A stretch of 64,000 nt of DNA from Saccharothrix algeriensis (lineage in GTDB: Bacteria > Actinomycetota > Actinomycetes > Mycobacteriales > Pseudonocardiaceae): assembly GCF_016907655.1 (NCBI RefSeq), contig NZ_JAFBCL010000001.1, forward strand, positions 2,824,001 to 2,888,000, read 5' to 3'. A program made the position numbers and the translations under genes. This document shows, piece after piece, positions 30,374 to 47,952 of this stretch (position 1 is its first letter; the number at the start of each line of letters is the position of its first letter). The notes below the pieces were generated by a model. The model was not told the origin of the DNA. It searched no databases and was given only the letters and a program-made list of their open reading frames with translations.

Positions 30374-31260
30374 AGCACCTCCCCCGACTTCTTCAGCGCC
30401 CGCAGGTACCCGAGCGTGACCAGCAGCAGCAACGCGGTCGTGACCACGCCGATGCTCGCGCCCAGCCCGTACTCCGACGCGGCGAACGCCTGCTGGTAGG
30501 CGTAGACGTTGAGCACGAGGTTGCGCCCGGCGATGCCGCCGCCGTTGGTCATGATGTAGACCTGGGTGAACACCTTGAAGTCCCAGATGATCGACTGGAT
30601 GGTCACGACGATCAGCAGCGGGCGCAGCAGCGGCAGCATCACCGACCGCGCGGTGCGCAGCGCCGACGCGCCGTCCAGCGCGGCGGCCTCCAGCACCTCG
30701 CCCGGGATCGCCTTGATGCCCGCGTACAGCGTCACCATGACGAACGGGAACGAGCACCAGATCACCTGGCCCGCCACCAGCCCGAACGCCAGCCACCGGT
30801 CGTAGGTCCAGGAGAACCCGGTGGTGCCCAGCAGCTCGTTGACGAACCCGAAGTTCGCGTCGAACAGGAACAGCCAGATCGTCGACCCGGCGACGGCCGG
30901 CGTGGCCCACGCGCCGAGCGCGGCCAGGAACAGCACCGTCCGCGCCCAGGTGCGGACCCTGGTGGCCAGCACGGCGAGCGCCGCGCCGACCACCAGGGTC
31001 CCGATCACGCACACCGCCGCGAACCCGACCGTCTGCCCGAGCACCGACCAGAACTTGGCGTCGGACAGCAGGGTCGCGTAGTTCCCCAGGCCGAGGAAGT
31101 CCAGCGCGGCGCCGCCGCTGACCTGCTCCTGGCCGTAGTCGAACAGCGAGATCAGCACGAGCTGGTAGATCGGGTAGCCCATCAGCCCGATCAGCACCAG
31201 CAGCGCCGGGGCGAGGTAGGCGAACGCGATCCGCCCGTCGCCCCTGGTGGAACGCATCAT
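30370..31260 (-). CDS. Carbohydrate ABC transporter permease (DasB/MalF type)
   Basis: This 296-residue permease begins MMRSTRGDGRIAFAYLAPALLVLIGLMGYPIYQLVL, has six TM segments and an EAA loop, IPGEVLEAAALDGASALRTARSVMLPLLRP. It pairs with the DasC-type permease to form the channel. The ATG overlaps the stop of the binding-protein gene (ATGA). Confidence 0.9.
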   Translation of the reverse strand: MMRSTRGDGRIAFAYLAPALLVLIGLMGYPIYQLVLISLFDYGQEQVSGGAALDFLGLGNYATLLSDAKFWSVLGQTVGFAAVCVIGTLVVGAALAVLATRVRTWARTVLFLAALGAWATPAVAGSTIWLFLFDANFGFVNELLGTTGFSWTYDRWLAFGLVAGQVIWCSFPFVMVTLYAGIKAIPGEVLEAAALDGASALRTARSVMLPLLRPLLIVVTIQSIIWDFKVFTQVYIMTNGGGIAGRNLVLNVYAYQQAFAASEYGLGASIGVVTTALLLLVTLGYLRALKKSGEVL

Positions 31261-32564: not shown

Positions 32565-32584
32565 CCGAACCCCCTCCAGTACGT

Positions 32585-32624
32585 GTTGCGTTATGTGCAA
32601 CGGCTATTTCATGGGAAGCAACGG
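32585..32624. promoter_or_regulatory. GTTGC/GCAAC repeats upstream of the sugar-binding gene
   Basis: GTTGC at 32585-32589 forms an inverted repeat with GCAAC at 32597-32601, and GCAACGG recurs directly at 32597 and 32618, 21 bp (two helical turns) apart. This lies 20-60 nt upstream of the start. It could be a site for a regulator other than DasR. Confidence 0.3.
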
Positions 32625-32647
32625 GGATGCTAGTGTCCGAATCGGCA

Positions 32648-32663
32648 AGCGGTCTAGACCAGA
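32648..32663. promoter_or_regulatory. DasR operator (dre) upstream of the sugar ABC operon, overlapping the cutC stop codon
   Basis: AGCGGTCTAGACCAGA contains the full dre core GGTCTAGACC plus the outer A, one mismatch from TGGTCTAGACCA. It lies 84-99 nt upstream of the binding-protein start. The central CTAG contains the TAG stop of cutC. DasR is encoded at 62.3 kb in this window. Confidence 0.75.
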
Positions 32664-33307
32664 TCCGCCCAGGTCCGGACGGCGTCGGCGGAGAGCGGCG
32701 CGTCCCACCCGCCGGGTCGCACCGCGCTCCCGACGTGGAAGCCGGCCGCCCCGACCGCCTTCAGCGGGGCCACCTGCCCGGCCTGGAGGCCACCGCCGAC
32801 CAGCAGCGCCACCTCGTCCTGCCGGGCGGCCAGCCGCTCCAGGACGGCGAACCCGTCCGCGACGCCGCGCGGCGAGCCGGCCGCGAGCACCGCGTCGCAG
32901 CCCAGCGCGGCCACCGCGCCCCACGCCGCCTCGGGGTCGGCGGAGTGGTCCAGCGCCCGGTGGAAGGTCCAGCGGCAGCCGTCCAGCTCGGCGAGCACGG
33001 CCCGGCAGGCGTCCTCGTCCACCCGGCCGTCGGGGCGCAGGAAGCCGAGCACGAACTCCGTCGCGCCCGCCTCGCGCAGGGCCGCCGCCTCCCGGCGCAG
33101 CCCGTCGACCGAGCCGGGCGCGAAGCCCGGCGCGTCGCGCAGCATGACCCGCACCGGCAGGTCGGTGGCGGCCAGCACGCTGCGCACCAGCGCGGGGGAC
33201 GGCGACAGGCCGTCGGCGGCCATGTCGGTGACGAGTTCGAGCCGGTGCGCTCCACCGGCCTGGGCGGCGACGGCGTCGGCCGCGTCGAGAGCGATGACCT
33301 CAAGCAT
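32654..33307 (-). CDS. cutC: CutC-family TIM-barrel protein
   Basis: The product (217 aa) has the CutC pattern: MLEVIALDAADAVAAQAGGAHRLELVTDMAADGLSPS, then LPVRVMLRDAPGF, EFVLGFLRPDGRVDEDA, WTFHRALDHSADPEAAW, and LLVGGGLQAGQV. CutC was first linked to copper homeostasis, but the link is disputed; many lie in sugar-catabolism operons. Here it directly precedes a Das-like importer and carries a dre-type site over its promoter, so a role in amino-sugar metabolism is more likely than copper. The start at 33307 is favoured over 33319 because TATGGT lies exactly 7 nt before it (leaderless signature). Confidence 0.82.
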   Translation of the reverse strand: MLEVIALDAADAVAAQAGGAHRLELVTDMAADGLSPSPALVRSVLAATDLPVRVMLRDAPGFAPGSVDGLRREAAALREAGATEFVLGFLRPDGRVDEDACRAVLAELDGCRWTFHRALDHSADPEAAWGAVAALGCDAVLAAGSPRGVADGFAVLERLAARQDEVALLVGGGLQAGQVAPLKAVGAAGFHVGSAVRPGGWDAPLSADAVRTWADLV

Positions 33308-33319
33308 GGTCTGGACCAT
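33306..33319. promoter_or_regulatory. dre-like operator over the cutC -10 and start codon
   Basis: ATGGTCTGGACCAT contains both dre half-sites (TGGTC and GACCA) with centre TG instead of TA. On the minus strand it overlaps the -10-like TATGGT (33320-33315) and the first base of the presumed leaderless start. Binding here would block initiation directly. Confidence 0.6.
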
Positions 33320-33799
33320 AACGGCCCGAGCGCGCCGCCGGGCGCGGCCCGCCCCCGGGCCGCGCGGTCGGGGGGCGGGCCGAGCGGCATCACCCGGGCG
33401 GGGGAGGTTCGGCCGGGCGCACACTGTGGAAGCGCCGCGGGCGGTGCCGTTGAGCTGGGGCGATGCCGGCTTTTCTCGCCGACCGTGAACTGTTAACGAC
33501 GGGCTGTGTATCCACCGTAGAACTACTCACTCCTTATCCATGACCGGACCTCGACCCACCAGGAGGCACCTCGTGAGAGCCGACCCGGGCGCTCCGACAC
33601 CCGCCGGGGGTCGTCGCCCCACCGACCACTAGGGGGAGGGGGCGGCTCCCGGTCGGCTTCGAGGGGTGTCGACCGGTGGTCGCCAGTGGTGAGTGGCGGT
33701 CCGCGGTGCGAGGGGGGCATCGCGGACCGCCGCCGCGGTTTGGCGGCGGGTGTGTGACGATCAGCTGCGGCTGGGGGATGTCGAGGAGGAGGTGACGAC
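33308..33799. other. Intergenic region between cutC and the ECF sigma gene
   Basis: About 490 bp between divergent genes. It holds the cutC promoter at its left end and a GAGGAGGAGGTGACGAC ribosome site for the sigma gene at its right end. A locally AT-richer patch at 33480-33545 (GTGAACTGTTAACGACG and TAGAACTACTCACTCCTTATCC) could be a promoter, but I cannot assign -35/-10 boxes with confidence. No coding pattern is seen. Confidence 0.5.
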
Positions 33800-34405
33800 G
33801 TGGGAGATCTGCGCACGGCCGGTGAGCGCCCACCGTGGGAGGGCCTGGACGGGACGGATCGGCACGCGGCCTGCGTCGTCGCCGCCCGCAACGGCGACCG
33901 CAGGGCGCTGGACGTGCTGGTGGCGGATCTGACGCCCCTGGTGTGGCACGTGGCGAGGGGGAACGGGCTGGACCGCAGCACCGCGGAGGACGTGGTGCAG
34001 ACGGTCTGGCTCGCGCTGCTGCGCCACCTGGACCGGTTGAACGAACCCCGGGCGCTGGCGGGGTGGCTCGTCGTGGCGACGCGCCGCGAGGCCCAGCGCA
34101 CCTGGACGCCGGCACGTCGGGAAGCGGCGCTGTCCGACGAGCTGGCGGAGCAGCTGGAGAGCGAGTACGGGTTGCCCGAGGACGCCGCCCTGGTCGACGA
34201 CCGGGACCACCGGTTGTGGCGGGCCTTCGGCCGCCTGTCGCAGAAGTGCCAGGAACTCCTGCGGCTCACCGTGCTGGCCGGGCGGGCGGAGTACCGCGCG
34301 GTCGCCGAAGCACTGTCCATGCCGCGCGGCAGCATCGGCCCGACCAGGGGCCGGTGCCTGACGACGCTGCGCACACATCTCGACGCGGAAGGAGGATCGC
34401 GGTGA
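33800..34405 (+). CDS. ECF-type RNA polymerase sigma factor
   Basis: This 201-residue sigma-70 family protein has region 2 (ALDVLVADLTPLVWHVARGNGLDRSTAEDVVQTVWLALLRHLDRLNEPRALAGWLVVATRREAQR, split around the DVVQTVW core) and region 4 (LWRAFGRLSQKCQELLRLTVL, then YRAVAEALSMPRGSIGPTRGRCLTTLR). The GTG start follows GAGGAGGTGAC. It overlaps the next gene, which probably encodes a regulatory partner. Its target promoters are unknown. Confidence 0.9.
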   Translation: MGDLRTAGERPPWEGLDGTDRHAACVVAARNGDRRALDVLVADLTPLVWHVARGNGLDRSTAEDVVQTVWLALLRHLDRLNEPRALAGWLVVATRREAQRTWTPARREAALSDELAEQLESEYGLPEDAALVDDRDHRLWRAFGRLSQKCQELLRLTVLAGRAEYRAVAEALSMPRGSIGPTRGRCLTTLRTHLDAEGGSR

Positions 34406-34887
34406 ACGACATCGACCCGCGCGATGACCGCAGAGGCCAAGAGGACACCGCTGTCCTCACCGAGCTCAACCGGTTGGTGCACGAACTCGACGCACCGCCG
34501 GCGGGCCTGGTCGAACGGATCCAGTTCGCGGTGGCCCTGGAAGACCTCGACGTGGAGGTCGCGCGCTGGGAACGGGCGGGCTCGTTCGCCGGCGTGCGCG
34601 GCGGCAACCCCGGCACCATCACGTTCACGGTGGACAACCTGACCCTCATGGTCAACTTCACACCCAGCGGGGCGCGGCACCGCATCGACGGCTGGCTGGT
34701 GCCCGCGGGCGAGCACACCGTCGAGGTGCGGGTGGCCGAGCACGAGTCGAGCACCACCAAGGCCGACGACGGCGGCCGGTTCGTGCTGGCGGACGTGCCC
34801 ACGGGCACGACGCAGATCGTGGTGCACCTGGTGGACTCGCGCGGAGAACGCGGTCGCACAGTGGTGACACCGACGATCATGCTGTAG
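34402..34887 (+). CDS. Partner protein of the ECF sigma factor, Ig-like C-terminal domain
   Basis: The product (161 aa) starts at a GTG overlapping the sigma stop (GTGA). The N-terminal 60 residues are helical and charged (LTELNRLVHELDAPPAGLVERIQFAVALEDLDVEVARWE). The rest is beta-rich: ITFTVDNLTLMVNFTPSG, RIDGWLVPAGEHTVEVRVAEHESSTTKADDGGRFVLADVPTGTTQIVVHLV, a carboxypeptidase-regulatory-like pattern. No TM segment or zinc-binding anti-sigma motif is seen. Such sigma/partner pairs are, as I recall, often followed by a CHAT or TPR protein gene; here the next sequence is tandem repeats and the hairpin repeat. Confidence 0.72.
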   Translation: MNDIDPRDDRRGQEDTAVLTELNRLVHELDAPPAGLVERIQFAVALEDLDVEVARWERAGSFAGVRGGNPGTITFTVDNLTLMVNFTPSGARHRIDGWLVPAGEHTVEVRVAEHESSTTKADDGGRFVLADVPTGTTQIVVHLVDSRGERGRTVVTPTIML

Positions 34888-35230
34888 GCGCGCGCCGACG
34901 CCTCGGCAGGCGTTTCGGCAGGCGTTCGGCAGGCGTCTCGGCCGGTGCACGACGGCGTTGAGAACACAGCGCCGACAGCACGGCGCCCAGGACATCGCAC
35001 CGACGACACAGCACCGACGACACAGCGCCCGACCGCGCTGATCCCGGCTCATCCGCATCGCAGGCAGTCCGCCCTCTGCCGCAGCACGACCCCGGCCTCG
35101 TGCCCGCCCCGTCCCGGTCACTCCGCAGGACCGGACGGGGAGCGCACGGGGCGTCGTGCTGTTCGGCTCGGGATGAGCGGTGACCCACTCGTAGGCGAGC
35201 TTGCGGCGCAATGCACAACTCCAGCACATG
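34888..35230. repeat. Non-coding stretch with short tandem repeats
   Basis: CGGCAGGCGT occurs at 34904, 34916 and 34927 (period 11-12), and a second pair of similar units (CACCGACGACACAG) lies near 35000-35030. No gene is supported. It leads into the 0.5-kb hairpin repeat. Confidence 0.6.
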
Positions 35231-35273
35231 AGCCGCGCTCCGCGCGGCGGCGCTTCAGCGCAGCCGTGTGCCT

Positions 35274-35398
35274 CGTGTTCTCCCCGTACGGCCTGGGCGC
35301 AGCCCAATCATCTTTGTCGGGGGGTGTCAAGCACGCTCTTCGCTTGACACCCCCCGACAAAGATGATTGCCTCCGGCAGGCCGTACGGGGAGAACACG
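35274..35398. repeat. Hairpin module A1: nested outer and inner stems
   Basis: The outer stem pairs 35274-35295 with 35377-35398 (22 bp, perfect). The inner stem pairs 35306-35332 with 35342-35368 (27 bp, perfect) with a 9-nt loop. The inner arm holds a run of six G opposite six C. An RNA or single DNA strand would fold into a very stable long hairpin with one internal bulge. Confidence 0.92.
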
Positions 35399-35559
35399 AC
35401 GCACTTCCCTCCTCCTTGGGGGCCTCCCGGCCGCTCTTCATACTTGTGTCGCGCACCGATCCAGGAAATATTTGGTGCGGTACCGCCCGAGGCTGAAGAG
35501 CTTTAAAGAGTCCTCGCCGGACAGGCAGGCCGCCAAGGAGAATGAAAAGAAACAGCGGT

Positions 35560-35671
35560 CGTGTTCTCCCCGCATGGCCTGTCAAAGACAACCATGCTTT
35601 CTTGGGGGGTGCAAGCGAAAAGCGTGCTTGCACCCCCCAGAAAAGCATGGTAGCCCTCCGGGCAGGCCATA
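35560..35671. repeat. Hairpin module B1 (right outer arm split by the IS630 element)
   Basis: The inner stem pairs 35591-35616 with 35626-35651 (26 bp, two adjacent mismatches) with a 9-nt loop. The outer left arm is 35560-35581; its partner starts at 35663-35671 and continues after the insertion at 36849-36861. It has the same design as module A: a CGTGTTCTCCCC-type arm, a G6/C6 inner stem and a 9-nt loop. Confidence 0.9.
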
Positions 35672-35744
35672 CTGATCTTCAATTGTTGGGGTCTGTGGTG
35701 GCTTGTGTCGGTGGGTGGGGCTGTCCCGGGGGTACCCGTGGGGT

Positions 35745-36826
35745 ATGCGCTATCCCGATGGTGGTGGCCTGACCGGACGGGAACGGGCCCGACGTGAGGC
35801 GGTGCGGATGCAGGCCGCCGACTGGTTCGAGCGTGGTGTGGGCGCCTGCGAGGTCGCTCGTGGTCTGCGGGTGTCGACCAAGTCCGCCTATGCCTGGCGG
35901 CGTTTGTGGCGTGCCGGGGGCCGGCAGGCCCTGCGCTCCAGGGGGCCGGGCGGGCCGGACTGCCGTCTGGACCGGGCCCGGCTCGACCGGCTGGTCCAGG
36001 CCCTGGAGCAGGGGCCGGCCGCCCACGGGTACACCGAGGATCGACGCTGGACCCTGGCCAGGGTCGCGGAGCTGGTCGCGCGGTTGTTCGCGGTGCGCTA
36101 CACCCCGGCCGGGATGTCGCTGGTGCTGCACCGCATCGGTTACAGCCCCCAGGTGCCGGCCCGGCGGGCCGACCGCCGTGACGAGGCCGCGGTCACCGCC
36201 TGGCGGCGGGAGTCGTGGGCGCGGGGAAAACCCTAGCCGCGGACCTGGGCGCCTGGTTGTGCTTCGAGGACGAGACCGGCTGCAACACCCGCCCGCACAA
36301 GGCCCGCACCTGGGCAAGGCGCGGCCACACCCCGGTCCTGCCCTACTGGGCCGGTTCCCAGGGTCGGATCTCGGTGGCCGGCCTGCTCTGCGTCAAACCC
36401 GGCGAACGCACCCGGCTGCTGCACCGGGTGCTCGTGCACCACCGCCGCCGCAGCCCGCCGGCCCCGCGCAGCTTCCTCGAGCGGCACTACCTCGCGCTGC
36501 TGGACGACGCCCACCGTCGCCTGGGCGGCCCGATCGTGCTGATCTGGGACAACCTCGACCGGCACATCAGCGCCCGGATACGGCCCGCCCTCGCCGCCCG
36601 GGACTGGCTGCACGTGATCCGACTACCCGCCTACGCCCCGGAACTCAACCCGGTGGAAGGGGTGTGGTCACACCTCAAACGCGGTCTGGCCAACCTCGCC
36701 CCCGTCGGTCTGAACGACCTGGTCCCGATCGTGCGCCGCCGACTCCGCCTCATCCGGAACCGGCCCGACCTGCTCGACGGATTCCTCGCCCACACCGGCC
36801 TGACCCTCACCCCCGAACCAACCTGA
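35745..36826 (+). CDS. IS630-family transposase made by -1 frameshifting (ORF A 35745-36236, ORF B to 36826)
   Basis: ORF A encodes the DNA-binding half: RERARREAVRMQAADWFERGVGACEVARGLRVSTKSAYAWRRLW is split by helix-turn-helix boundaries, followed by a second HTH and HRIGYSPQVPARRADRRDEAAVTAW. It stops at TAG 36234-36236. ORF B, in the -1 frame, continues with LGAWLCFEDETG (first Asp), VLIWDNLDRH (second Asp) and LNPVEGVWSHLK (Glu), the DDE catalytic triad. A slippery GGGAAAA at 36224-36230 would fuse them into one protein of about 360 residues. ORF B has no ribosome site of its own. Confidence 0.92.
36224..36230 (+). promoter_or_regulatory. Slippery heptamer G_GGA_AAA for -1 frameshifting
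   Basis: In the ORF A frame the bases read CGG GGA AAA CCC TAG, so GGGAAAA has the X_XXY_YYZ form two codons before the stop. After slipping, the frame reads GGG AAA ACC CTA and enters ORF B exactly. Confidence 0.85.
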
Positions 36827-36848
36827 CCCCAACAATTGAAGATCAGTA

Positions 36849-36909
36849 CGGGGAGAACACGAGGCCACCGGACTGCACGGGGCGTGCAGGGAGCCTGAAG
36901 AGCAAAAGT
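36849..36909. repeat. 0.5-kb hairpin repeat, copy 1, right part
   Basis: This is the continuation of copy 1 after the IS element: CGGGGAGAACACGAG completes the outer arm of module B1, followed by CACCGGACTGCACGGGGCGTG and a shared AGCAAAAGT end. It stops just before the groEL terminator. Confidence 0.88.
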
Positions 36910-36922
36910 GGTAAGTGCCCTG

Positions 36923-36958
36923 AAAAACCGGAAGGCCCGGTCCTGGTGGACCGGGCCT
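36923..36958 (-). terminator. Rho-independent terminator of groEL2
   Basis: A perfect 11-bp stem (36948-36958 with 36933-36943), a 4-nt loop, then TTTTT on the minus strand, 17 nt beyond the groEL2 stop. Confidence 0.92.
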
Positions 36959-36974
36959 CGCGGAGTGGTGCGAC

Positions 36975-38806
<1,832 letters not shown>

Positions 38807-38816
38807 GAACCGCAGG

Positions 38817-40109
38817 TCAGCGTGGCGTCTTCACGGGCACACTGTTGGGTAGCGGCCGGTTGCTCCCGGTGCCGTCGCCGACGTCGATGGACTGGTTCGT
38901 GCCGGTGAGCGCCGGCACGCGGGGCTCCTCGGACTTGGGCATGAGGATGATCACCAGGACGACGACGGCGATGATCGCCACCACGCCGACGACGACCGGC
39001 GCGACCCACGCGGGCCGGGACCTGGCGGTCGTGGTGAACGCGGACGCGCTGCCGACCTGGGTCGGCGGGCGCAGCCGCACCGGCTCGGCCAGGAAGCCGG
39101 GCTGCTGGGTGAACCCGCCCGACGGCGTCCCGGCCGGCGGCTGCCCCTGCGCGGGCTGCTGGTAGCGCTGCTGCTGCGGCTGCGCGGGTTGCTGCTGCTG
39201 CGCCTGCTGCGGGCCGGGCACGGGCGTCGGCCCGGACACCGGGGCGTCGGTCCGGCGCGGCGGCGTGGTCACGGTGGCCGCGCCGCCCAGCGCGGCGCGG
39301 GCGGCCGAGATCAGCTCCTGGCACGTCCCGTACCGCTGGTTGGGGTCCTTGGCGGTGCCCTTGCGCAGCACGTCGTCGATGCCCGGCGGCAGCGCCACCA
39401 GCGAGGTCAGGGCGGGCACCTCGGCGCCCAGGTGGCCCTGGATGACGTCCTGCACGCCGCCCTGGAACGGCGGGCGGCCGGACAGGCACGCGAACACCAT
39501 GCAGGCCAGCGCGTACTGGTCGGTGCGGCCGTCCAGCGGCTCGCCGCGCAGGTGCTCGGGCGCGGCGTAGGTGGGCGAGCCGAGGAAGTCCCCGGTCCGG
39601 GTGCGGTGGCCGGTCGCGCCGCGCCGGGTCAGGCCGAAGTCCGCGAGGTAGACGTGCTCGCGGGCCGCCTCCTTGGTGGTGACCAGCACGTTCGCCGGCT
39701 TCACGTCCAGGTGCACGAGGCCCTTGCCGTGCAGCATGTCCAGCGCCTCGGCGACCTGGCCGAGCAGCGTGAGGGTGCGCGCGGGCGAGATCGGGCCGTC
39801 CTTGATGTGGCTGGCCAGGTCCTGCCCGTCGACCAGCCGCATGGCGATGTAGAGCAGGCCGTCGACCTCGTCGAAGTCGTACAGCGGCACGATGTTCGCG
39901 TGGTCGATCGCCGAGGTGTTGCGCGCCTCGTCGACGAACCGCTCGCGGAACTCGGCGTCCGCGGTGAGGTGCTCGCCGATGACCTTCAGCGCCACCTTGC
40001 GGCCGAGCCTGACGTCCGTGGCCCGGTAGGTCACGCTCATGCCACCGCGGCCGAGCACCCCGTCGATCCGGTAGTGGCCCAGCCGTCGCCCGCTCAGGTC
40101 CTCCGACAC
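38817..40109 (-). CDS. Transmembrane Ser/Thr protein kinase (Pkn type)
   Basis: The product (430 aa) has a Hanks-type kinase domain at residues 10-270: LGRGGMSVTYRA (P-loop), VALKVIGE (Lys), HLDVKPANVLV (catalytic Asp), ADFGLT (DFG) and GSPTYAAPEHL (activation segment). A Gln/Pro-rich linker follows (QQAQQQQPAQPQQQRYQQ), then one TM segment (WVAPVVVGVVAIIAVVVLVIILM) and a short outside tail of about 40 residues without PASTA repeats. The HLDVKP in place of HRDVKP is a known variation. The GTG start is preceded by TAGGCT and 7 nt, with no ribosome site. Confidence 0.93.
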   Translation of the reverse strand: MSEDLSGRRLGHYRIDGVLGRGGMSVTYRATDVRLGRKVALKVIGEHLTADAEFRERFVDEARNTSAIDHANIVPLYDFDEVDGLLYIAMRLVDGQDLASHIKDGPISPARTLTLLGQVAEALDMLHGKGLVHLDVKPANVLVTTKEAAREHVYLADFGLTRRGATGHRTRTGDFLGSPTYAAPEHLRGEPLDGRTDQYALACMVFACLSGRPPFQGGVQDVIQGHLGAEVPALTSLVALPPGIDDVLRKGTAKDPNQRYGTCQELISAARAALGGAATVTTPPRRTDAPVSGPTPVPGPQQAQQQQPAQPQQQRYQQPAQGQPPAGTPSGGFTQQPGFLAEPVRLRPPTQVGSASAFTTTARSRPAWVAPVVVGVVAIIAVVVLVIILMPKSEEPRVPALTGTNQSIDVGDGTGSNRPLPNSVPVKTPR

Positions 40110-40116
40110 GCGGGTC

Positions 40117-40122
40117 AGCCTA
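40117..40122 (-). promoter_or_regulatory. -10-like TAGGCT exactly 7 nt before the kinase start
   Basis: TAGGCT, 7 nt, GTG on the minus strand; the same arrangement as at menC, the AAA ATPase and def in this window. Confidence 0.5.
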
Positions 40123-40400
40123 ACGTCCGGGTGAACCGGCGTGCGCCGGGTTCCGGGTAAGACCACCCGGGCCGGGACCGCCCGGCGCGGGGCCGATCGG
40201 CCGCGAGCCGTTCGGGGCACGCCCGCCCGCGGACCGGGCGGCGCGGGGGTCGCGGGCCGGGCGGGACCGGCCTCACCGGCCCGGCCGCGCCGGTGCGCGC
40301 AGGTTCGGCCCGCTCCGGGCCCCGCTGCCCCGGGCCGGGCGCGGGGCGGGGCCCGACGGGTGGGGCGGCCCGACCCGCCGCGCGGCGGGCCGGGCGGGTG

Positions 40401-40607
40401 TCACGACGCCTTCCGGACGTCCGATGCCTGGCTGCGGCCGTCGCGGCCGGCCTGGATCTCGAACTCCACGCGGTCGCCCTCGGCCAGCGTGCGGAAGCCC
40501 TCCATCTGGATCGCCGAGTAGTGCACGAAGACATCGGGCCCGCCGTCGGCGGCGATGAAGCCGTACCCCTTCTCCGAGTTGAACCACTTGACCGTGCCGA
40601 CAGCCAA
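40401..40607 (-). CDS. Cold shock protein (CspA family)
   Basis: This 68-residue single CSD protein has RNP1 KGYGFIA and RNP2 VFVHYSAI in [31 protein letters not shown], split at the Gly-Gly turn. It binds single-stranded nucleic acid. The TTG start is chosen because AGGAGG lies 5 nt upstream and the family begins (M)AVGTVKWF. The C-terminus [17 protein letters not shown] is slightly unusual; most actinobacterial Csps end with GPQAENVRP-like sequence, which this resembles loosely. Confidence 0.93.
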
Positions 40608-40686
40608 GACGTCCTCCTTTGAGAAATACCTGAGCAAACCGCCACGCTAGAGGCACGAGGGGGTTCGCCGATACCTCCTTATGGAG

Positions 40687-41331
40687 TCATGCGCGCACGC
40701 TGAATCCGTTGTCGCGCAACCAACTGACGAGACCCCGCGGGCTGCGGGTCCGGGTCAGCACGAGGCCGGGGCCCGCGAAGTCGAGGACCAGGCCGTCGCC
40801 ATTGCGCACGGATTGGGGCGTATCGGGGGAAACGGCGCGCAACCGGCACTGGAGGGTGTCGGCGAATCCGACGACGTGACCGCTGTGCAGGGTGACCAGC
40901 TCACCCGCGTCCAGGGTCACGACGTCCAGGGTGCCGTAGCAGGCCAGCACGACCGAGCCGGCGCCGTAGACGTAGGTGAGGAACCCGCTGTCGCCGCCGT
41001 GCAGCGCCCGCAGCGGCGGCGCGGACGGGTCCATGGCGACCGAGCCGGACGCGGCGAGCCAGCCGTTGCGGGCGACGCACCAGCCGGTCTTGCCGTCCAG
41101 CTCCAGCACGTGCAGGTCGCCGGGCAGCGGCGGGGCGACGTCCACCCAGCCGCCCTCCGGGCCCGCCGTGCACAGCGCGGCCTTGACGCCGGGCGCCTTG
41201 CCCCTGGTGTCGTGGCTGACGCCGTAGCTGGTCGCGAACAGCGAGGAGCGTTCGACGAGGACCGGTTCGGCGGGCGCGAGGACCAGCCTGGCCACTCCGA
41301 AGGTCGGCGTGTGTCGCGTGCGGACCTGCAC
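40687..41331 (-). CDS. AIM24-family protein
   Basis: The product (214 aa) begins VQVRTRHTPTFGVARLVLAPAEPVLVERSSLFATSYGV and continues with beta-rich Gly-containing repeats (LHVLELDGKTGWCVARNGWLAAS, then GGDSGFLTYVYGAGSVVLACYG), the AIM24/TIGR00266 double-beta fold. In yeast AIM24 is mitochondrial; bacterial members have unknown function. The GTG start follows GGGAGGGG. It is divergent from moeA, with 73 bp between the two starts. Confidence 0.8.
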   Translation of the reverse strand: MQVRTRHTPTFGVARLVLAPAEPVLVERSSLFATSYGVSHDTRGKAPGVKAALCTAGPEGGWVDVAPPLPGDLHVLELDGKTGWCVARNGWLAASGSVAMDPSAPPLRALHGGDSGFLTYVYGAGSVVLACYGTLDVVTLDAGELVTLHSGHVVGFADTLQCRLRAVSPDTPQSVRNGDGLVLDFAGPGLVLTRTRSPRGLVSWLRDNGFSVRA

Positions 41332-41404
41332 CGGACGTTCCCCTCCCGCGGTTGCTCGGCGGCCGGTCGGGGCAGTCTCGCACGAGGGCGGCAGGATGGT
41401 GCCC

Positions 41405-42604
41405 GTGTCGAACTCCTTGACCCGGGTGGCGGACCACCGGGAGCGGGTCGCCGGCCTGCTCGGGCCGATGCCGGCGGGCCCGCTGCCGATCGCGGACTGC
41501 CTCGGCCTGGCGCTGGCCGAGGACCTGGTCGCGCCGGTGGCGCTGCCGCCGTTCGACAACTCGGCGATGGACGGCTACGCCGTGCGGGCGGCGGACGTGG
41601 CGGCGACCCCGGTGGTGCTGCCGGTGACCGACGACATCCCGGCGGGGCGCACGGCGCTGACGCCGCTGGGCCCGGGCACCGCGCAGCGCATCATGACCGG
41701 CGCTCCGCTGCCCGCCGGCGCGGACGCCGTCGTGCAGGTCGAGTGGACCGACGGCGGCACCGGGTCGGTGCGGGTGGACCGGGGCGTCGCGGAGGGCGCG
41801 AACGTGCGGCGCGCCGCGGACGACGTGGCCGCGGGCACGACCGTGCTGCGCGCGGGCACGCCGCTGGGGCCCGCGCAGCTGGGGCTGGCGGCGGCGCTGG
41901 GGTTCGGCGCGCTGCCGGTGCGCAGGCGGCCGAGGGTGCTCGTGCTGTCGACCGGTTCGGAGCTGGTCGCGCCGGGCGTGCCGCTGGAGCCGGGGCAGAT
42001 CTACGAGTCGAACGGCGTGATGCTGGCGGCGGCCGTGCGCGAGGCCGGTGGCGAGGCGGAGCTGCTGCGGTTCGTGCCGGACGACGTGGCGGTCTTCCAC
42101 GAGGCCGTGGGGGCGCGGCTGGCGGGTTTCGACCTGCTGCTGACCTCGGGCGGGGTGAGCGCGGGCGCGTACGAGGTGGTCAAGGACGCGTTCACCGGGC
42201 GGGGCGTGGAGTTCACCAAGGTCGCCATGCAGCCCGGGGGTCCGCAGGGCGCCGGGCGGTACCTCGGCGTGGCGGTGGCGACGCTGCCGGGGAACCCGGT
42301 GAGCGCGCAGGTGTCGTTCGAGGTGTTCATCCGACCGGCGCTGCGCGCTTCGATGGGCCTGCCGGACGCGGAGCGGCCGGTCGTGCGGGCCCGGCTGAGC
42401 GCTCCCCTGACGTCCCCGGCGGGCCGCACCCAGTTCCGGCGCGGGAAGTACGACCCGGTGTCGGGGCGGGTGGTGACGCCGGTCGGCGGGCCCGGGTCGC
42501 ACCTGCTGTCGGCGCTGGCCTTGAGCGACTGCCTGATCGAGGTGCCCGAGGACGTCACGGAGCTGGCGGCGGGGGCGGACGTGGCCGTGCGACTGCTGCG
42601 CTGA
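41405..42604 (+). CDS. moeA: Molybdopterin molybdenumtransferase MoeA
   Basis: This 399-residue enzyme inserts molybdenum into adenylylated molybdopterin. It has the MoeA N-terminal domains (PLPIADCLGLALAEDLVAPVALPPFDNSAMDGYAVRA, IMTGAPLPAGADAVV) and the MoCF domain (VLVLSTGSELV, GQIYESNGVMLAAAV, LLLTSGGVSAGAYEVVKD, FTKVAMQPGGPQGAG, LPGNPVSAQVSFEVFI). It corresponds to M. tuberculosis moeA2 beside groEL2. The GTG at 41405 is favoured because CAGGAT lies exactly 7 nt upstream; an ATG at 41396 would add three residues. Its product would supply cofactor for the CoxL enzyme in this window. Confidence 0.93.
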   Translation: MSNSLTRVADHRERVAGLLGPMPAGPLPIADCLGLALAEDLVAPVALPPFDNSAMDGYAVRAADVAATPVVLPVTDDIPAGRTALTPLGPGTAQRIMTGAPLPAGADAVVQVEWTDGGTGSVRVDRGVAEGANVRRAADDVAAGTTVLRAGTPLGPAQLGLAAALGFGALPVRRRPRVLVLSTGSELVAPGVPLEPGQIYESNGVMLAAAVREAGGEAELLRFVPDDVAVFHEAVGARLAGFDLLLTSGGVSAGAYEVVKDAFTGRGVEFTKVAMQPGGPQGAGRYLGVAVATLPGNPVSAQVSFEVFIRPALRASMGLPDAERPVVRARLSAPLTSPAGRTQFRRGKYDPVSGRVVTPVGGPGSHLLSALALSDCLIEVPEDVTELAAGADVAVRLLR

Positions 42605-42605
42605 G

Positions 42606-42690
42606 GCTCCCGGCGGGGCTCCCGGCGGGGCTCCCGGCGGGGCTTTTGGTGGGGCTTTTGGTGGGCTTCCGGCGGGGCCGGGGTCGTGGC
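42606..42690. repeat. Short direct repeats downstream of moeA
   Basis: GGGGCTCCCGGC-type units repeat three times, followed by degenerate GGGGCTTTTGGT units. Non-coding on both strands as far as I can tell. Confidence 0.6.
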
Positions 42691-42832
42691 GGGAACGCGG
42701 GACGGCCGGCTCCGAGTCAAGCCGCGCTCGGCGCGGCCCTGACGCACGGGCCGCGCCCCGCGCGGCGGCGCTTCAGCTCTCGCCTCAAGCCGCGCCCCGC
42801 GCGGCGGCGCTGTTCAGCGCAGCCGTGTGCCT

Positions 42833-42957
42833 CGTGTTCTCCCCGTACGGCCTGGGCGCAGCCCGATCATGTTTTCCGGGGGGCGTCAAGCACGCTCTTC
42901 GCTTGACGCCCCCCGGAAAACATGATTGCCTCCGGCAGGCCGTGCGGGGAGAACACG
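42833..42957. repeat. Hairpin module A2: nested stems
   Basis: Outer stem 42833-42854 with 42936-42957 (22 bp, one T-G mismatch). Inner stem 42866-42891 with 42901-42926 (26 bp, perfect), 9-nt loop ACGCTCTTC as in A1. Four stem positions differ from A1 and each is matched by a compensating change in the other arm. Confidence 0.92.
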
Positions 42958-43118
42958 ACGCACTTCCCTTCTCCTTGGGGGCCTCTCGGCCGCTCTTCAT
43001 ACTTGGGTCGCGCACCGATCCAGGAAATATTTGGTGCTGTACCGCCCGAGGCTGAAGGGATTAAAAGAGTCCTCGCCGGACAGGCAGGCCGCCAAGGAGA
43101 ATGAAAAGAAACAGCGGT

Positions 43119-43243
43119 CGTGTTCCCCCCGCATGACCTGTCAAAGACAACCATGCTTTCTTGGGGGGTGCAAGCGAAAAGCGTGCTTGCACCCCCCAAG
43201 AAAGCATGGTAGCCCTCCGGGCAGGCCATACGGGGAGAACACG
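43119..43243. repeat. Hairpin module B2: nested stems
   Basis: Inner stem 43150-43175 with 43185-43210 (26 bp, perfect), 9-nt loop GAAAAGCGT. Outer stem 43119-43140 with 43222-43243 (22 bp, a few mismatches). In copy 1 the right outer arm of this module received the IS630 element. Confidence 0.9.
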
Positions 43244-43289
43244 AGAGCACCGGACTGCACGGGGCGTGCTGAGAGCCGAAAGCAAAAGT

Positions 43290-43734
43290 TGGGCGGGGCT
43301 GGAGGTGGTCGGCTGGGGGACGGTGTGACTGGGGGTCGGTTCGGTTTTTGCGCGAGTGTCGTTGGGGTGCGACTGTGCGGGGCTCTCCTCGGCTCCGCAA
43401 ACCGCGTCGGCCGGGTCGAGCGGGTCTTCGACGGGGGCTCGTGAACCGTGTCGGCCGGTGCCGCCGAGAGCGCGGCCCGCGTCGAGCGACCCGGTCCGAG
43501 CCCGGGGCCATCACTGGGGAGATCGACCGAACCGAATCGTTCGAGTACAGTGAGTCATCCGGCCTTCACTCAATGCCATTGATTACGCCATGTGACCCGG
43601 ATTACACTCTCGGCACGCCCGCCCGGTGGGCGCGTGCGTTCGTCGGGGGACGCACGGGCACACCGGGCGGGATCCGGCGTACCGCCGGCGTAGCGTGGGG
43701 CCGGCCGGAAGCACTGCCCCGACACGGAAGAGCC
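43290..43734 (+). promoter_or_regulatory. Intergenic region upstream of psd with a probable promoter at 43579-43608
   Basis: TTGATT (43579-43584), 18 nt, TACACT (43603-43608) is a good sigma-70-type promoter, 127 nt upstream of psd. The region 43540-43610 is AT-richer than its surroundings. No gene is supported in the rest. Confidence 0.55.
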
Positions 43735-44445
43735 ATGAGCGTCGATCGCGACAAGCACAGCGGTGCCGTATCCCACCTCCTCGACCTCGCGCGGGGGATC
43801 GTCCCCCCGATGCACCCCGCCGGCCGCCCGTTCGTGGCGGTCGCGGCGGTCGTCGCCCTCCTGCTGCGCCGGTTCTCGCGGCGCGCCGGTGTGGCCGGCG
43901 GCCTGCTGACCGCGTGGGTGGCCTGGTTCTTCCGGGAACCCGCGCGCACCACCCCGGTCCGCCCCAACATCGCCGTGGCGCCCGCCGACGGCACCGTCTC
44001 GCACGTGGTAGAAGCCGTGCCGCCGGCCGAACTCGGCCTCGGCGACGTGCCGATGACCCGCGTCAGCGTCTTCCTGTCGGTGTTCGACGTGCACGTCCAG
44101 CGCGTGCCGGTGTCCGGCGAGGTCCGCCGCGTGGCCTACCGGCCGGGCAAGTTCCTGTCCGCCGACCTGGACAAGGCCAGCGACGACAACGAGCGCAACG
44201 CGGTGCTGCTGACTTCCACCGAGGGCCACGACATCGTCGTGGTGCAGATCGCCGGCCTGGTGGCGCGGCGGATCGTGTGCGACGCGGCCGAGGGCGACCG
44301 GCTCACCGTCGGCCGGACCTACGGCCTGATCCGGTTCGGCTCGCGGGTCGACCTGTACGTGCCGCGGGGCAGCCGGGTGCTGGTCGAGCCGGGCCAGCGC
44401 ACCATCGGCGCGGAGACCGTGCTCGCCGAACTGCCGGAGCTCTGA
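43735..44445 (+). CDS. psd: Phosphatidylserine decarboxylase (short type)
   Basis: Psd converts phosphatidylserine to phosphatidylethanolamine at the membrane. The 236-residue proenzyme has an N-terminal membrane region (FVAVAAVVALLLRRF, then GGLLTAWVAWFFREP), APADGTVSHV, VFLSVFDVHVQRVPVSGEV (catalytic Asp-His region), KASDDNERNAVLL, and the C-terminal GSR in IRFGSRVDLYVP, where self-cleavage should form the pyruvoyl group. It is followed after 4 nt by pssA, which makes its substrate. The ATG follows GGAAGAGCC. Confidence 0.93.
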   Translation: MSVDRDKHSGAVSHLLDLARGIVPPMHPAGRPFVAVAAVVALLLRRFSRRAGVAGGLLTAWVAWFFREPARTTPVRPNIAVAPADGTVSHVVEAVPPAELGLGDVPMTRVSVFLSVFDVHVQRVPVSGEVRRVAYRPGKFLSADLDKASDDNERNAVLLTSTEGHDIVVVQIAGLVARRIVCDAAEGDRLTVGRTYGLIRFGSRVDLYVPRGSRVLVEPGQRTIGAETVLAELPEL

Positions 44446-44449
44446 TCCG

Positions 44450-45421
44450 ATGGCGCCCAGCGGCCCGGGCGTCCGGCTGCTGCCCAACGCGATCACGGTC
44501 CTGGCGATGTGCGCCGGGCTGTCGACCGTGTACTTCGCCATCAACGGCTTCTACGGCGCCGCCATCGCGTCCCTCGCGGTGGCGGCGGTGTTCGACGGGC
44601 TGGACGGCCGCATCGCGCGGCTGCTCGACGCCACCAGCAAGATGGGCGCGGAGCTGGACTCGCTGGCCGACGCGGTGTCGTTCGGCGTCGCGCCGGCCCT
44701 GGTCGTCTACGTGTGGAAGTTCGAGCCCCACCGCGAGGGCTGGGTGGTGGCGCTGATCTTCGCGGTCTGCATGGTGCTGCGGCTGGCCCGGTTCAACACG
44801 CTGCTGGAGACCGAGCAGCCGCCGTTCGCCAAGGAGTTCTTCGTCGGGGTGCCCGCCCCGGCCGGCGGCATGCTGCTGCTGCTGCCGCTGATCCTGGACG
44901 AGCAGGTGGGCCGCCCCGGCTGGTGGTCGCAGCCGTGGGTGGTGGCCCTCTGGACGGTGGCCATCGCGCTGCTGCTGGTCAGCCGCATCCCGACGCTGTC
45001 GGTGAAGACGATCAAGGTCCAGCCGCGGGCCGTCGCGCCGCTGCTGGTGCTGGTCGGGCTGCTGGCGGCGGCCGTGATCACGTTCCCGCTGGCGGCGCTG
45101 GGCGCGGCGATGCTGCTCTACCTGGCCCACCTGCCGTACTCGGTGCGCCGGTACCGCTGGCTGGCCAGGCACCCGGAGGCGTGGTCGGTGCCGGCCGCCG
45201 ACCGCCGGGCCATCAAGCGCGCGCACGGCGTGGCCGCGCGGAGGCTGGGCCTGCGGAGGCCCTTGGGCGGCCGGGTGGCGGGCGCGGCGATGCGCGCCGT
45301 GCGCCGGCCGCGCCGCGCCGTGGACCCGACGCAGGTGGCCGCCGAGGCGGCCGGGCAGCCGAGGCCGGACAAGCGCCGCGGCTGGCGGCAGATCGGGCTG
45401 CGCCGGCACCACCGGCCCTGA
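44450..45421 (+). CDS. pssA: CDP-diacylglycerol-serine O-phosphatidyltransferase with long basic tail
   Basis: PssA makes phosphatidylserine from CDP-diacylglycerol and serine. The CDP-alcohol transferase signature D-G-x2-A-R-x8-G-x3-D-x3-D is complete in DGRIARLLDATSKMGAELD followed by SLAD (about residues 48-70). Six or more TM segments follow. The last 80 residues (from about RYRWLARHPEAWS) are strongly basic and probably cytosolic, an extension not needed for catalysis and longer than in many relatives. It is co-transcribed with psd. Confidence 0.93.
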   Translation: MAPSGPGVRLLPNAITVLAMCAGLSTVYFAINGFYGAAIASLAVAAVFDGLDGRIARLLDATSKMGAELDSLADAVSFGVAPALVVYVWKFEPHREGWVVALIFAVCMVLRLARFNTLLETEQPPFAKEFFVGVPAPAGGMLLLLPLILDEQVGRPGWWSQPWVVALWTVAIALLLVSRIPTLSVKTIKVQPRAVAPLLVLVGLLAAAVITFPLAALGAAMLLYLAHLPYSVRRYRWLARHPEAWSVPAADRRAIKRAHGVAARRLGLRRPLGGRVAGAAMRAVRRPRRAVDPTQVAAEAAGQPRPDKRRGWRQIGLRRHHRP

Positions 45422-45586
45422 CGCCGCGGCGTCAGGCGGGGCGTCCGGCGGGGCGTCCGGGCCGGCCGCCGGTTACCCCGGCGTCCGGCTCCGGCGGAGC
45501 GGTCGGGCGGGCCGGTGACGCCGCGCCCACCCGCCCGGACGTCGGAGGACGGGCCCGGTGGGCCGGTCCGGGCCGGGGCGGTGGCC

Positions 45587-45592
45587 TAGGCT
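45587..45592 (+). promoter_or_regulatory. -10-like TAGGCT exactly 7 nt before the AAA ATPase start
   Basis: TAGGCT, 7 nt, GTG, with no ribosome site between: leaderless signature. Confidence 0.5.
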
Positions 45593-45599
45593 CGCCGGT

Positions 45600-47798
45600 G
45601 TGATCACGCTGACCGCCCGCCTCTCCCCCTCCGCCCTCGACACCCGGCGCGGGGTCGTCCGGCTGCACCCCGAGGTGCTGGACGCGCTGGGGCTGCGCGC
45701 GTGGGACGCGGTGCGGCTGACCGGCGCGCGGGTCAGCTCCGCGCTGGCCGCCGCCGGCGACGGCGCGCCCGGCGTGGTCTTCGTGGATGACGTGACGCTG
45801 TCCAACATCGGCGTCACCGAGGGGGCGGAGGTCGTGGTCGCCCCGGTCGAGGTGTCGGGCGCGCGGTCGGTCACCGTCGCCGGCTCCCGGCTGGCCAGCA
45901 CGTCGCTGACACCCGAGACGCTGCGCATGGCGCTGACCGGCAAGGTGCTCACCGTCGGCGACGCGGTGTCCCTGCTCCCGCAGGACCTCGCGCCGCCGCC
46001 GGGCGCGGACGTCAGCGCCACGCGCCGGAAGCTGTCCAACGCCATCGGCATGACGTGGACCAACGAGCTGCTGACCGTCACCCACGTGGAACCCGCCGGC
46101 GGTCCGGTCGCGGTGCAGCCGTCCACGGTCGTCGGCTGGCGGGACGGCGCGCGCACCGGTGACGCCGCGCCCGCTGCGCCGCCGGCGACCGGGGCCGCCG
46201 ACGCGCCCGCCGCGGTCGACGCGCCGGAGCCCGAGCCGGTCCCGATCGCCGACCTGGTCGGCCGCAAGGAGGCGGCCCGCCGCCTCGGCGAGTGGCTCGA
46301 CCTGACCTTCAGCCACCCCGAGCTGCTGACCCGCCTCGGCGCGGCGCCCCGGCTGGCCGCGCTGGTCAGCGGGCCCGAGGGGGTCGGCAAGGCGACGCTG
46401 GTGCGGGCCGTCGCGCACAGCGTCGGCGCGCGGGTCGTCGAACTCGCCGCGCCGAGCGTCGCGGTGCTGGAGGCCAACGCGGCGGCCCGGCGGCTGGCCG
46501 ACGCCATCGCCTCCGCCGCGTCGCCCGCCGTGCTGCTGCTGACCGACGTGGAGGCGCTGCTGCCGGCGAGCGACCCGCCGCCGGTCGCCACGGTGGTGCT
46601 GGACGCGTTGCGCGCGGCGGCGCGGCAGGCGGGTTTCGCGCTCGTCGTGACCAGCGCGCACCCGGAGGCGATCGACCCCCGGCTGCGCGTGCCCGAGCTG
46701 GTGGACCGGGAGCTGGTGCTGCCGCTGCCCGACGGCGCGGCGCGGACCGACCTGCTGCGCGTGCTGCTGCGGGACGTGCCGCTGGAGCCGGACGTCGACC
46801 TGGGCGCGGTCGCCGACCGGACGCCGGGGTTCGTCGCGGCCGACCTGGTGGCGCTGCGCCGCGAGGCGGCCGTGCGGTCGGCGCTGCGCCAGCGCGACGC
46901 CACCGAGCCGCGCGTGGCGCAGCAGGACCTGCTGGGCGCGCTGGACACGGTCCGGCCGATCTCGATGTCGACCTCGGACACCCTGCGCACCGGCGGGCTG
47001 ACGCTGGCCGACGTGGGCGACATGGTCGAGGTGAAGCAGGCGCTCACCGAGGCCGCGCTGTGGCCGCTGCAGTACCCGGACTCGTTCGCCCGGCTCGGCG
47101 TGGCCCCGCCGCGCGGCCTGCTGCTGTACGGCCCGCCGGGGTGCGGCAAGACGTTCCTGGTGCGGGCGCTGGCGGGCACCGGGCGGCTGAACGTGCTGTC
47201 GGTCAAGGGCGCGGAGCTGATGGACAAGTTCGTCGGCGAGTCCGAGCGCGCGGTGCGCGAGCTGTTCCGGCGGGCCGCCGAGGCGTCACCCGCGCTGGTC
47301 TTCCTCGACGAGGTGGACGCGCTCGCGCCCCGCCGCGGCCAGTCCGCCGACTCGGGCGTGGCCGACCGCGTGGTGGCGGCGCTGCTGACCGAGCTGGACG
47401 GCGTCGAGCCGCTGCGGGACGTGGTCGTGCTGGGCGCGACCAACCGGCCGGAGCTGATCGACCCGGCGCTGCTGCGGCCGGGCCGCCTGGAGCGCCTGGT
47501 CTACGTGCCGCCGCCGGACACCGAGGCGCGGGCGGAGATCCTGCGGGCCTCGTCGCGCAACACGCCGCTGGCGGCGGACGTGGACCTGGCGGCGCTGGCC
47601 GAGGAGCTGGAGGGGTACTCGGCGGCGGACTGCGCGGCGCTGGTCCGCGAGGCGGCGCTGACCGCGATGCGGGAGTCGCTGGCGGCGGCCGAGGTGACGA
47701 AGGCCCACCTGGCGGCGGCGCGCTCGGCGGTGCGGCCCTCGCTGGACCCGGCGCAGCTGGCCGCCCTGGCGGCCTACGCGGAGTCCCGCGGCGGCTGA
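45600..47798 (+). CDS. CDC48/p97-like tandem AAA ATPase
   Basis: The product (732 aa) has an N-terminal CDC48_N-like double-psi barrel (ARLSPSALDTRRGVVRLHPEVLDALGLRAWDAVRLTG), then an Ala/Pro linker and two AAA modules. D1 (about residues 220-440) is degenerate: P-loop SGPEGVGKAT is present, but the Walker B reads LLLTDVEALLP without the Asp-Glu pair. D2 is complete: YGPPGCGKTF, VFLDEVDALAP, sensor GATNRPELIDPALLRPGRLE. M. tuberculosis Rv0435c, next to pssA, is the likely counterpart. The function in bacteria is not established; protein unfolding or membrane-protein quality control is an inference. Confidence 0.9.
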   Translation: MITLTARLSPSALDTRRGVVRLHPEVLDALGLRAWDAVRLTGARVSSALAAAGDGAPGVVFVDDVTLSNIGVTEGAEVVVAPVEVSGARSVTVAGSRLASTSLTPETLRMALTGKVLTVGDAVSLLPQDLAPPPGADVSATRRKLSNAIGMTWTNELLTVTHVEPAGGPVAVQPSTVVGWRDGARTGDAAPAAPPATGAADAPAAVDAPEPEPVPIADLVGRKEAARRLGEWLDLTFSHPELLTRLGAAPRLAALVSGPEGVGKATLVRAVAHSVGARVVELAAPSVAVLEANAAARRLADAIASAASPAVLLLTDVEALLPASDPPPVATVVLDALRAAARQAGFALVVTSAHPEAIDPRLRVPELVDRELVLPLPDGAARTDLLRVLLRDVPLEPDVDLGAVADRTPGFVAADLVALRREAAVRSALRQRDATEPRVAQQDLLGALDTVRPISMSTSDTLRTGGLTLADVGDMVEVKQALTEAALWPLQYPDSFARLGVAPPRGLLLYGPPGCGKTFLVRALAGTGRLNVLSVKGAELMDKFVGESERAVRELFRRAAEASPALVFLDEVDALAPRRGQSADSGVADRVVAALLTELDGVEPLRDVVVLGATNRPELIDPALLRPGRLERLVYVPPPDTEARAEILRASSRNTPLAADVDLAALAEELEGYSAADCAALVREAALTAMRESLAAAEVTKAHLAAARSAVRPSLDPAQLAALAAYAESRGG

Positions 47799-47952
47799 GC
47801 GCCCCGCGCCCGGCCGGGCGCGCCGTACCGGCCGGGCCCCCGCTGATCGGGCTCTCCCGGCCGGGCTCCTCCCGGCCGGCCCCTTCGGACCGGCCCGGAG
47901 CCGCGCGCTGCCCGCTCCCCGCGAACCCCGCCCGAACGGCGGTCGCGGGCGG

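Follow-up and report, generated by a model that had tools for sequence, protein, structure and literature searches.

In a 64,000-nucleotide stretch of the Saccharothrix algeriensis chromosome (contig NZ_JAFBCL010000001.1, positions 2,824,001 to 2,888,000; hereafter the window), we followed up a dispersed repeat of paired long hairpins that an earlier note had described from the letters alone. The S. algeriensis chromosome carries about 100 copies of this element (about 105), and we consider it, on balance, probably a REPIN/BIME-like non-autonomous mobile repeat composed of two inward-facing RNA hairpin-terminators and spread by a presumed trans-acting enzyme. The earlier note had offered four options: a mobile unit, a structured RNA, a DNA-hairpin substrate and a terminator or insulator. 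Our reading combines three of them. The mobile unit is kept because the insertions are mostly species-specific, and the structured RNA and terminator are kept because the hairpins fold strand-specifically, end in a terminator-like tail and lie at the 3′ ends of genes; we disfavour an intermediate made of one DNA strand of the whole unit, since G.T mispairs fall on opposite strands in its two halves.

The repeat is assembled from half-elements, each consisting of a hairpin of ~125 nt (H) followed by a tail (T) in which an arm-like motif leads to a small GGCGA-loop stem and then to a T-rich tract. In the window, the two copies were proposed to be near-identical, and with the insertion sequence (IS) in copy 1 excluded, 474 of 500 aligned bases are the same (94.8%). 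The 22-bp outer arms, the inner stems with six G opposite six C and the 9-nt loops were likewise found as described, with inner stems of 26-28 bp, and the feet of the hairpins read TCGTG..CACGA. The proposal that the unit is itself a duplication stood in that its two modules, A and B, are related, and it holds only for an inverted duplication: the arms at 42831-42959 and 43117-43245 are 78% complementary, and complementary blocks of 129 nt (or 115 nt) lie inverted and 157 nt apart in each copy. Because each module is palindromic, the orientation of A and B was judged from the loops (ACGCTCTTC in A, GAAAAGCGT in B), the sides of the internal loops and the tails. The tail of each hairpin points to the centre of the element, and the B tail, on the minus strand, reads CTCCTTGGCGGCCTGCC-TGTCC-GGCGA-GGAC-TCTTTTAATC, that is, a third copy of the arm motif, the GGCGA-loop stem and a T tract. 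In folding, half A of copy 2 surpasses shuffled sequences by 12.8 standard deviations, half B by 11.3 and the full copy by 19.2. The parts of the two copies are as follows.

35231-36909, plus strand: copy 1, composite of A half, centre and B half, interrupted by the IS at 35672-36846.
35274-35398, plus strand: copy 1 module A hairpin; outer arms 35274-35295 and 35377-35398, inner stem 35305-35332 and 35342-35369, loop 35333-35341; H to T on the plus strand.
35411-35449, plus strand: copy 1 half-A tail; third arm-like motif CTCCTTGGGGGCC, small GGCC stem, T-rich stretch.
35503-35542, minus strand: copy 1 half-B tail; arm-like motif, GTCC-GGCGA-GGAC stem and T tract as read on the minus strand.
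35560-36861, minus strand: copy 1 module B hairpin; outer arm 35560-35581, inner stem 35591-35616 and 35626-35651, IS-split outer arm 35663-35671 plus 36847-36861.
35672-36846, plus strand: IS630-type IS with HTH_33 and DDE_3 open reading frames, at a TA of the B outer arm; foreign to the element.
36875-36887, unstranded: copy 1 short outer hairpin on the B side, GCACGGGGCGTGC.
42787-43289, plus strand: copy 2, composite, uninterrupted.
42717-42826, unstranded: copy 2 flanking tandem array on the A side, short GCCGCGC..GCGCGGC hairpins.
42833-42957, plus strand: copy 2 module A hairpin; outer arms 42833-42854 and 42936-42957, inner stem 42866-42891 and 42901-42926, loop 42892-42900.
42971-43006, plus strand: copy 2 half-A tail.
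43061-43101, minus strand: copy 2 half-B tail; arm-like motif, GTCC-GGCGA-GGAC stem (43069-43081) and T tract as read on the minus strand.
43119-43243, minus strand: copy 2 module B hairpin; outer arms 43119-43140 and 43222-43243, inner stem 43150-43175 and 43185-43210, loop 43176-43184.
43257-43269, unstranded: copy 2 short outer hairpin on the B side, GCACGGGGCGTGC.

The suggested search of the host genome (S. algeriensis, G000, the source of the window) excluded uniqueness to this locus. With the 503-bp copy 2 as query, the 6.88-Mb contig gave at least 40 near-full-length matches of 89-100% identity, 40 of 181 candidates having been scored. The outer-arm pattern (≤2 mismatches) matched 148+148 times, against 0 for a reversed control, and the tail motif had 108 matches where its control had 0, although a few of these may be non-tails, judging by their differing letters. 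We studied 70 copies for context, a part of the total taken largely from the first 4.2 Mb of the genome. Both tails, in an H-T..T-H composite, were present in 65 of the 70, and the B half stood alone in five (L059, L075, L080, L084 and L088), with L059 reduced to a single hairpin without tails. The A side came in three kinds, namely A, A′ (CTCCTCC in the arm) and C (GTCATCC), and modules that a first listing of arms had shown as ‘solo’ proved to be mostly A′ or C variants of composites. The arm-like motif of the tail varies with the arm (TTCTCC with TTCTCC, GTCATCC with GTCATCC), as judged by eye and uncounted.

We then asked in what form the hairpins are conserved. If a palindrome were relevant only as a double strand, its mispairs should be as often G.T as A.C. 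Read from H to T, the stems of 61 A, 66 B and 4 C hairpins of S. algeriensis held 209 G.T, 5 A.C and 105 other mispairs, with G.T:A.C ratios of 55:3 in A and 140:2 in B. A count over 221 halves from 13 species, made with a looser stem rule, gave 549 G.T, 129 A.C and 365 other cells, and G.T exceeded A.C in each species; 45 of the A.C cells came from G000, 43 of them from one context at the edge of an internal loop. Because copies share ancestry and their mismatch cells are not independent, distinct contexts were also counted (154 G.T and 40 A.C, or 67 G.T, 13 A.C and 27 other under a stricter rule with three paired neighbours on each side). Fourteen halves from other genera showed 28 G.T, 2 A.C and 31 other mispairs. 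The control, hairpins elsewhere in such loci that have weaker stems and were admitted at a lower score limit, showed 1125 G.T, 1105 A.C and 1786 other. These counts indicate that single-strand folding of each half is selected, most simply as RNA. They also bear on a DNA-level landmark between converging genes, such as a cruciform or a site for gyrase or a nucleoid protein, of the kind proposed for BIMEs. The location of the copies and their perfect long palindromes would suit such a landmark, but a double-stranded site gives no reason for an excess of G.T over A.C on one strand, and we regard this explanation as very improbable.

With A and B in inverted orientation, G.T falls on one DNA strand in A and on the other in B, and a single folded strand of the whole composite is therefore not the selected form. 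The tail pattern was drawn from B, so that the 58 G000 halves in the 13-species count are almost all B halves, and this argument consequently stands on the separate A and B ratios from S. algeriensis. Two converging transcripts, or halves handled singly, can fit G.T on opposite strands. A further explanation, which we consider less likely, is that the half-element is a REPIN-like single-stranded DNA unit: the strand that runs from H to T would fold, an enzyme specific for hairpins would recognise it in that form while it is copied, and the terminator features would be incidental. Inverted doublets, compensatory stem changes, location at 3′ ends and singlets parallel what passages of PMC3116915 and PMC3733652 describe for REPINs and REP dimers, and the G.T bias is unaffected by the direction of the neighbouring gene. 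In the four best-sampled genomes, moreover, mismatches found in at least four copies were all G.T (14 G.T to 0 A.C) and private ones stood at 20:7, a difference that was not significant (p=0.07). Yet a one-strand intermediate of the composite predicts A.C in one half, where both show G.T, and the T tract behind the tail stem is left unexplained. Nor was a RAYT-type transposase found in most genomes with many tails: Y1_Tnp (PF01797, RAYT-type) had 0 matches in the S. algeriensis assembly, which is 90% complete, and it was found in 5 of 25 Saccharothrix genomes, of which G023 alone is among the 10 with at least 24 tails, leaving 8 of the 9 such species other than S. algeriensis without a match.

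The tail resembles a transcription stop. Among 194 distinct tails, from genomes of 72-74% G+C, the seventh and eighth letters behind CGGCGAG are T in 90-91% of cases and letters 13-17 in 49-73%, and the tail stem covaries around a constant GGCGA loop (GTCC/GGAC, GGCC/GGCC, GCGC/GCGC). As sequence, this is the pattern of an intrinsic terminator, a G+C-rich stem and then a T tract.

Both copies had been placed past the 3′ ends of genes, and so they are: copy 1 lies between convergent genes, the neighbour of a sigma-70 region 2 gene and a Cpn60/GroEL gene, and copy 2 lies behind moeA in a tandem pair with psd (phosphatidylserine decarboxylase). This extends to the genome, where 3′ ends of genes are preferred by the elements. 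With genes called by our own unbenchmarked caller, which scores codon usage, the 70 copies fell into 30 convergent, 36 tandem and 4 divergent settings, compared with 12, 50 and 50 for control gene pairs from these loci with 60 bp or more between them (convergent excess, p about 1e-6; divergent depletion, p about 4e-9). Composites in tandem settings were closer to the 3′ end than to the next gene start: in one orientation the median distances were 92 and 206 bp, and in the other 55 and 185 bp. Across the 13 species, 139 halves belonged to HT..TH composites (75 convergent; tandem, 28 and 21; 13 divergent; 2 undetermined), 72 were isolated (34 convergent; tandem, 12 in sense and 16 in antisense; 6 divergent; 4 undetermined), and 10 stood in a TH..HT arrangement. 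A protein-coding role was rejected: long open reading frames cross the repeat, yet the gene caller retains only the two IS genes there, in line with the claim that the element encodes no protein.

The earlier note had also called for a comparison of occupied and empty sites, which we made between species. moeA and psd are 1133 bp apart in S. algeriensis; in other Saccharothrix they are 181-261 bp apart in 18 genomes and 658 bp apart, with other sequence between, in G009, psd was not located in 5, and the element was not found in the moeA 3′ flank of any of the 24. Over syntenic stretches of G000, G015 and G016, 37 of 39 comparisons of orthologous sites came out empty, and the other 2 viewed one occupied site from both sides; in 7 further comparisons the flanks were not found. 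Sites were called ‘empty’ if the stretch between the mapped flanks showed no long hairpin of the element type; some of the gaps hold 1-8 kb of other sequence, and one gap (G000 2909603-2910034) holds a different hairpin family. In G021, six half-elements (L099-L104) are nearly identical over ~235 nt, with an identical hairpin, and sit at unrelated places. For 12 pairs of element and empty site compared for target duplication, the flanks had diverged and were lined with decayed short-hairpin arrays. The elements are insertions, mostly species-specific at the sites compared, and their turnover between species is high but incomplete.

High turnover would also follow from a purely selfish insertion with no function at its site, found behind genes only because insertions elsewhere are harmful, and the indifference of isolated halves to orientation agrees with this. 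We nevertheless think it improbable as the whole account, since selfishness alone leaves unexplained the strand-specific pairing that is seen even in private mismatches, the T tract of the tail and its covarying stem. Still less credible is that the repeats are remnant ends of a known IS or transposon. The terminal inverted arms and the IS630-type copies inside elements of this host might suggest it, but the ends of the IS630-type IS differ from the element arms, and in the 70 copies read the only genes between arms were those of the IS630-type IS and no autonomous partner was found, the rest of the genome not having been searched for one.

Several side observations concern the surroundings of the elements. 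All five IS630-type insertions found in the fetched S. algeriensis loci fall within element copies, in a tally biased by the choice of most loci for carrying the element, and four of the five share one TA position in an outer arm (CGTGTTCTCCCCG-TA). Many elements are bordered by short G+C-rich hairpins in tandem array (42717-42826 in the window; the left flanks of 63 copies); by eye, the unit next to the element is intact and outer units are ever more degenerate, as if the array grew at the element side. A degenerate 12-bp tandem repeat (GGCTCCCGGCGG) occupies 42604-42680, immediately 3′ of the moeA stop codon, and each of the G021 half-elements L099-L104 has before it a variably composed array of ~24-nt repeats (GCATGACTCGCC...). 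Another dispersed family of hairpins, arranged in tandem pairs (stem GTCGGTGYGTTGYGCCCG...; L428:1718-1937 and 10725-10928, L434:10155-10355), has a 9-nt apical loop, ACGCTTTTC, that is also the loop of many elements. Similar hairpins occur in G015 and G016, and in G000 and G015 this family occupies the site where G016 has the element.

Tail counts in the 25 Saccharothrix genomes ranged from 2 to 149 (control 0-4). The highest were in G016 (149), G000 (108), G010 (77), G015 (68), G001 (50), G009 (42), G005 (40), G017 (40), G023 (25) and G020 (24), and the remaining 15 had 2 to 17. A survey of 150 Pseudonocardiaceae genomes, 7 of them from Saccharothrix, found raised counts beyond that genus in G148 (47), G118 (37), G209 (24), G230 (22), G215 (19), G225 (18), G201 (15) and G212 (14). 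Upstream of the tail, a long hairpin was present in 14 of 31 places in six non-Saccharothrix genomes (G209 5/5, G118 4/6, G230 3/5, G148 1/5, G215 1/5, G201 0/5), and genus g17 keeps the HT..TH plan with different stems. Other Pseudonocardiaceae genera thus have related elements. A plasmid, phage or viral origin was rejected after three collections gave no match, one of them having been searched with one exact tail pattern only.

From the fold, the tail and the location, we infer that the element produces RNA and terminates or stabilises transcripts. The best-supported function would be an RNA-level 3′ end, in which hairpin and terminator are doubled into a bidirectional device. New copies would be inserted, or survive, directly behind stop codons; a transcript arriving from either side would fold H, which would shield its 3′ end, and transcription would stop at the tail T. 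The composite would then act as a bidirectional terminator or insulator, spread by an enzyme acting in trans. A family-wide version of this, in which mobile 3′-end RNA modules, or ‘jumping terminators’, have species-private stems and one fold both ends transcripts and is read by the enzyme as the element spreads between gene ends, strikes us as unlikely.

A number of results weigh against the hairpin-terminator reading. A purely local terminator role predicts that isolated halves are aligned with genes and that the G.T bias depends on gene direction, and neither was seen. Among the 68 isolated halves with both neighbours known, those in tandem settings had no preferred gene orientation (the 12 sense and 16 antisense above). 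Sorting into isolated and composite was automatic, and L073 (an IS-split composite), L300 and L318 (partner half ~350-400 bp off) were entered as isolated; without them the tandem halves stand at 12 sense and 14 antisense. Whichever way the gene flanking H pointed, the G.T bias was similar (88:30 vs 51:14, p=0.59). In the TH..HT elements of G017 and G020 it is the tail that faces the adjacent gene, the T tract is missing in some species (G021, G008), a generic terminator scan assigned no score to the GGCGA-loop stem of the tail, and a scan for promoters found no promoter-like site. Nor are all sites species-specific, since ten locus pairs from different species match on both flanks (L014/L386, L074/L375, L123/L052, L146/L330, L299/L326, L106/L118, L373/L126, L374/L049, L155/L039 and L318/L040, each pair sharing an interval); these may be old copies or repeated use of one site. 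The main point among these is the orientation-indifference of isolated halves, which leaves room for a purely mobilisation-related role of the single-strand fold.

If the hairpin-terminator reading is true, Pseudonocardiaceae hold an overlooked, fast-evolving class of mobile elements that provides ready-made bidirectional transcription ends, and with it a natural experiment in the rewiring of gene 3′ ends. It also raises the question of what moves a palindromic repeat in genomes where RAYT was not found. A need for reverse transcriptase was rejected: RVT_1 had no match in S. algeriensis, and of the 10 of 25 Saccharothrix genomes that have it, 5 are among the 10 species with at least 24 tails, leaving 5 of those 10 where it was not found. 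The G.T/A.C asymmetry test is cheap and could separate single-strand (RNA or single-stranded DNA) from double-strand function in other orphan palindromic repeats.

Finally, we compared the element with known systems. A known Rfam family was rejected, with 0 matches above the curated threshold in 30000-48000 of the window (12 sub-threshold matches in 42600-43500). A described REP or MITE (miniature inverted-repeat transposable element) family, which would have lowered its novelty, was found neither in Rfam nor in our searches of the openly accessible literature, which gave no description of this repeat (subscription papers not covered); the S. espanaensis genome paper (PMC3469384) does not mention repeats, palindromes, hairpins or terminators and uses ‘intergenic’ once, about gene finding. 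Intrinsic (Rho-independent) terminators, some of them bidirectional, consist of a stem and then a T tract behind genes, as the element does, but the element has a very long hairpin before the stem, about 100 related copies and insertion sites that differ between species. ERIC, YPAL, Bcr1, RUP and BOX are described in parts of PMC2267715 as dispersed, non-coding, structured repeat families. The element shares these traits with such long stem-loop families and with MITEs, but it has modular half-elements in two arrangements (HT..TH and TH..HT), and no parent transposon was found for it among the 70 copies, the only part of the genome searched for one. REPs are reportedly IS targets, and copies of the element also carry IS insertions. 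According to sections of PMC3733652 and PMC3116915, REP, BIME and REPIN sequences form inverted palindromic doublets with a structured spacer, reach high copy number and lie near the 3′ ends of convergent or co-directional genes. The element likewise occurs as dispersed inverted doublets at high copy number, with compensatory changes and an intergenic 3′ location. Membership of RAYT/REPIN was rejected on unit size, tag and RAYT alike: the hairpin is ~125 nt and the composite about 503 bp, against palindromes of 20-40 bp in REPs; a GTAG or CGTC tag was not seen at the hairpin feet by eye, with no dedicated search; and the Y1 transposase of RAYT-linked REPINs was not found in S. algeriensis. The Saccharothrix element further differs from REPs and REPINs in its terminator-like tail and in the G.T bias from H to T in both halves. 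While not a member by the features tested, the element resembles the REP/BIME/REPIN class, and this is the closest known kind.

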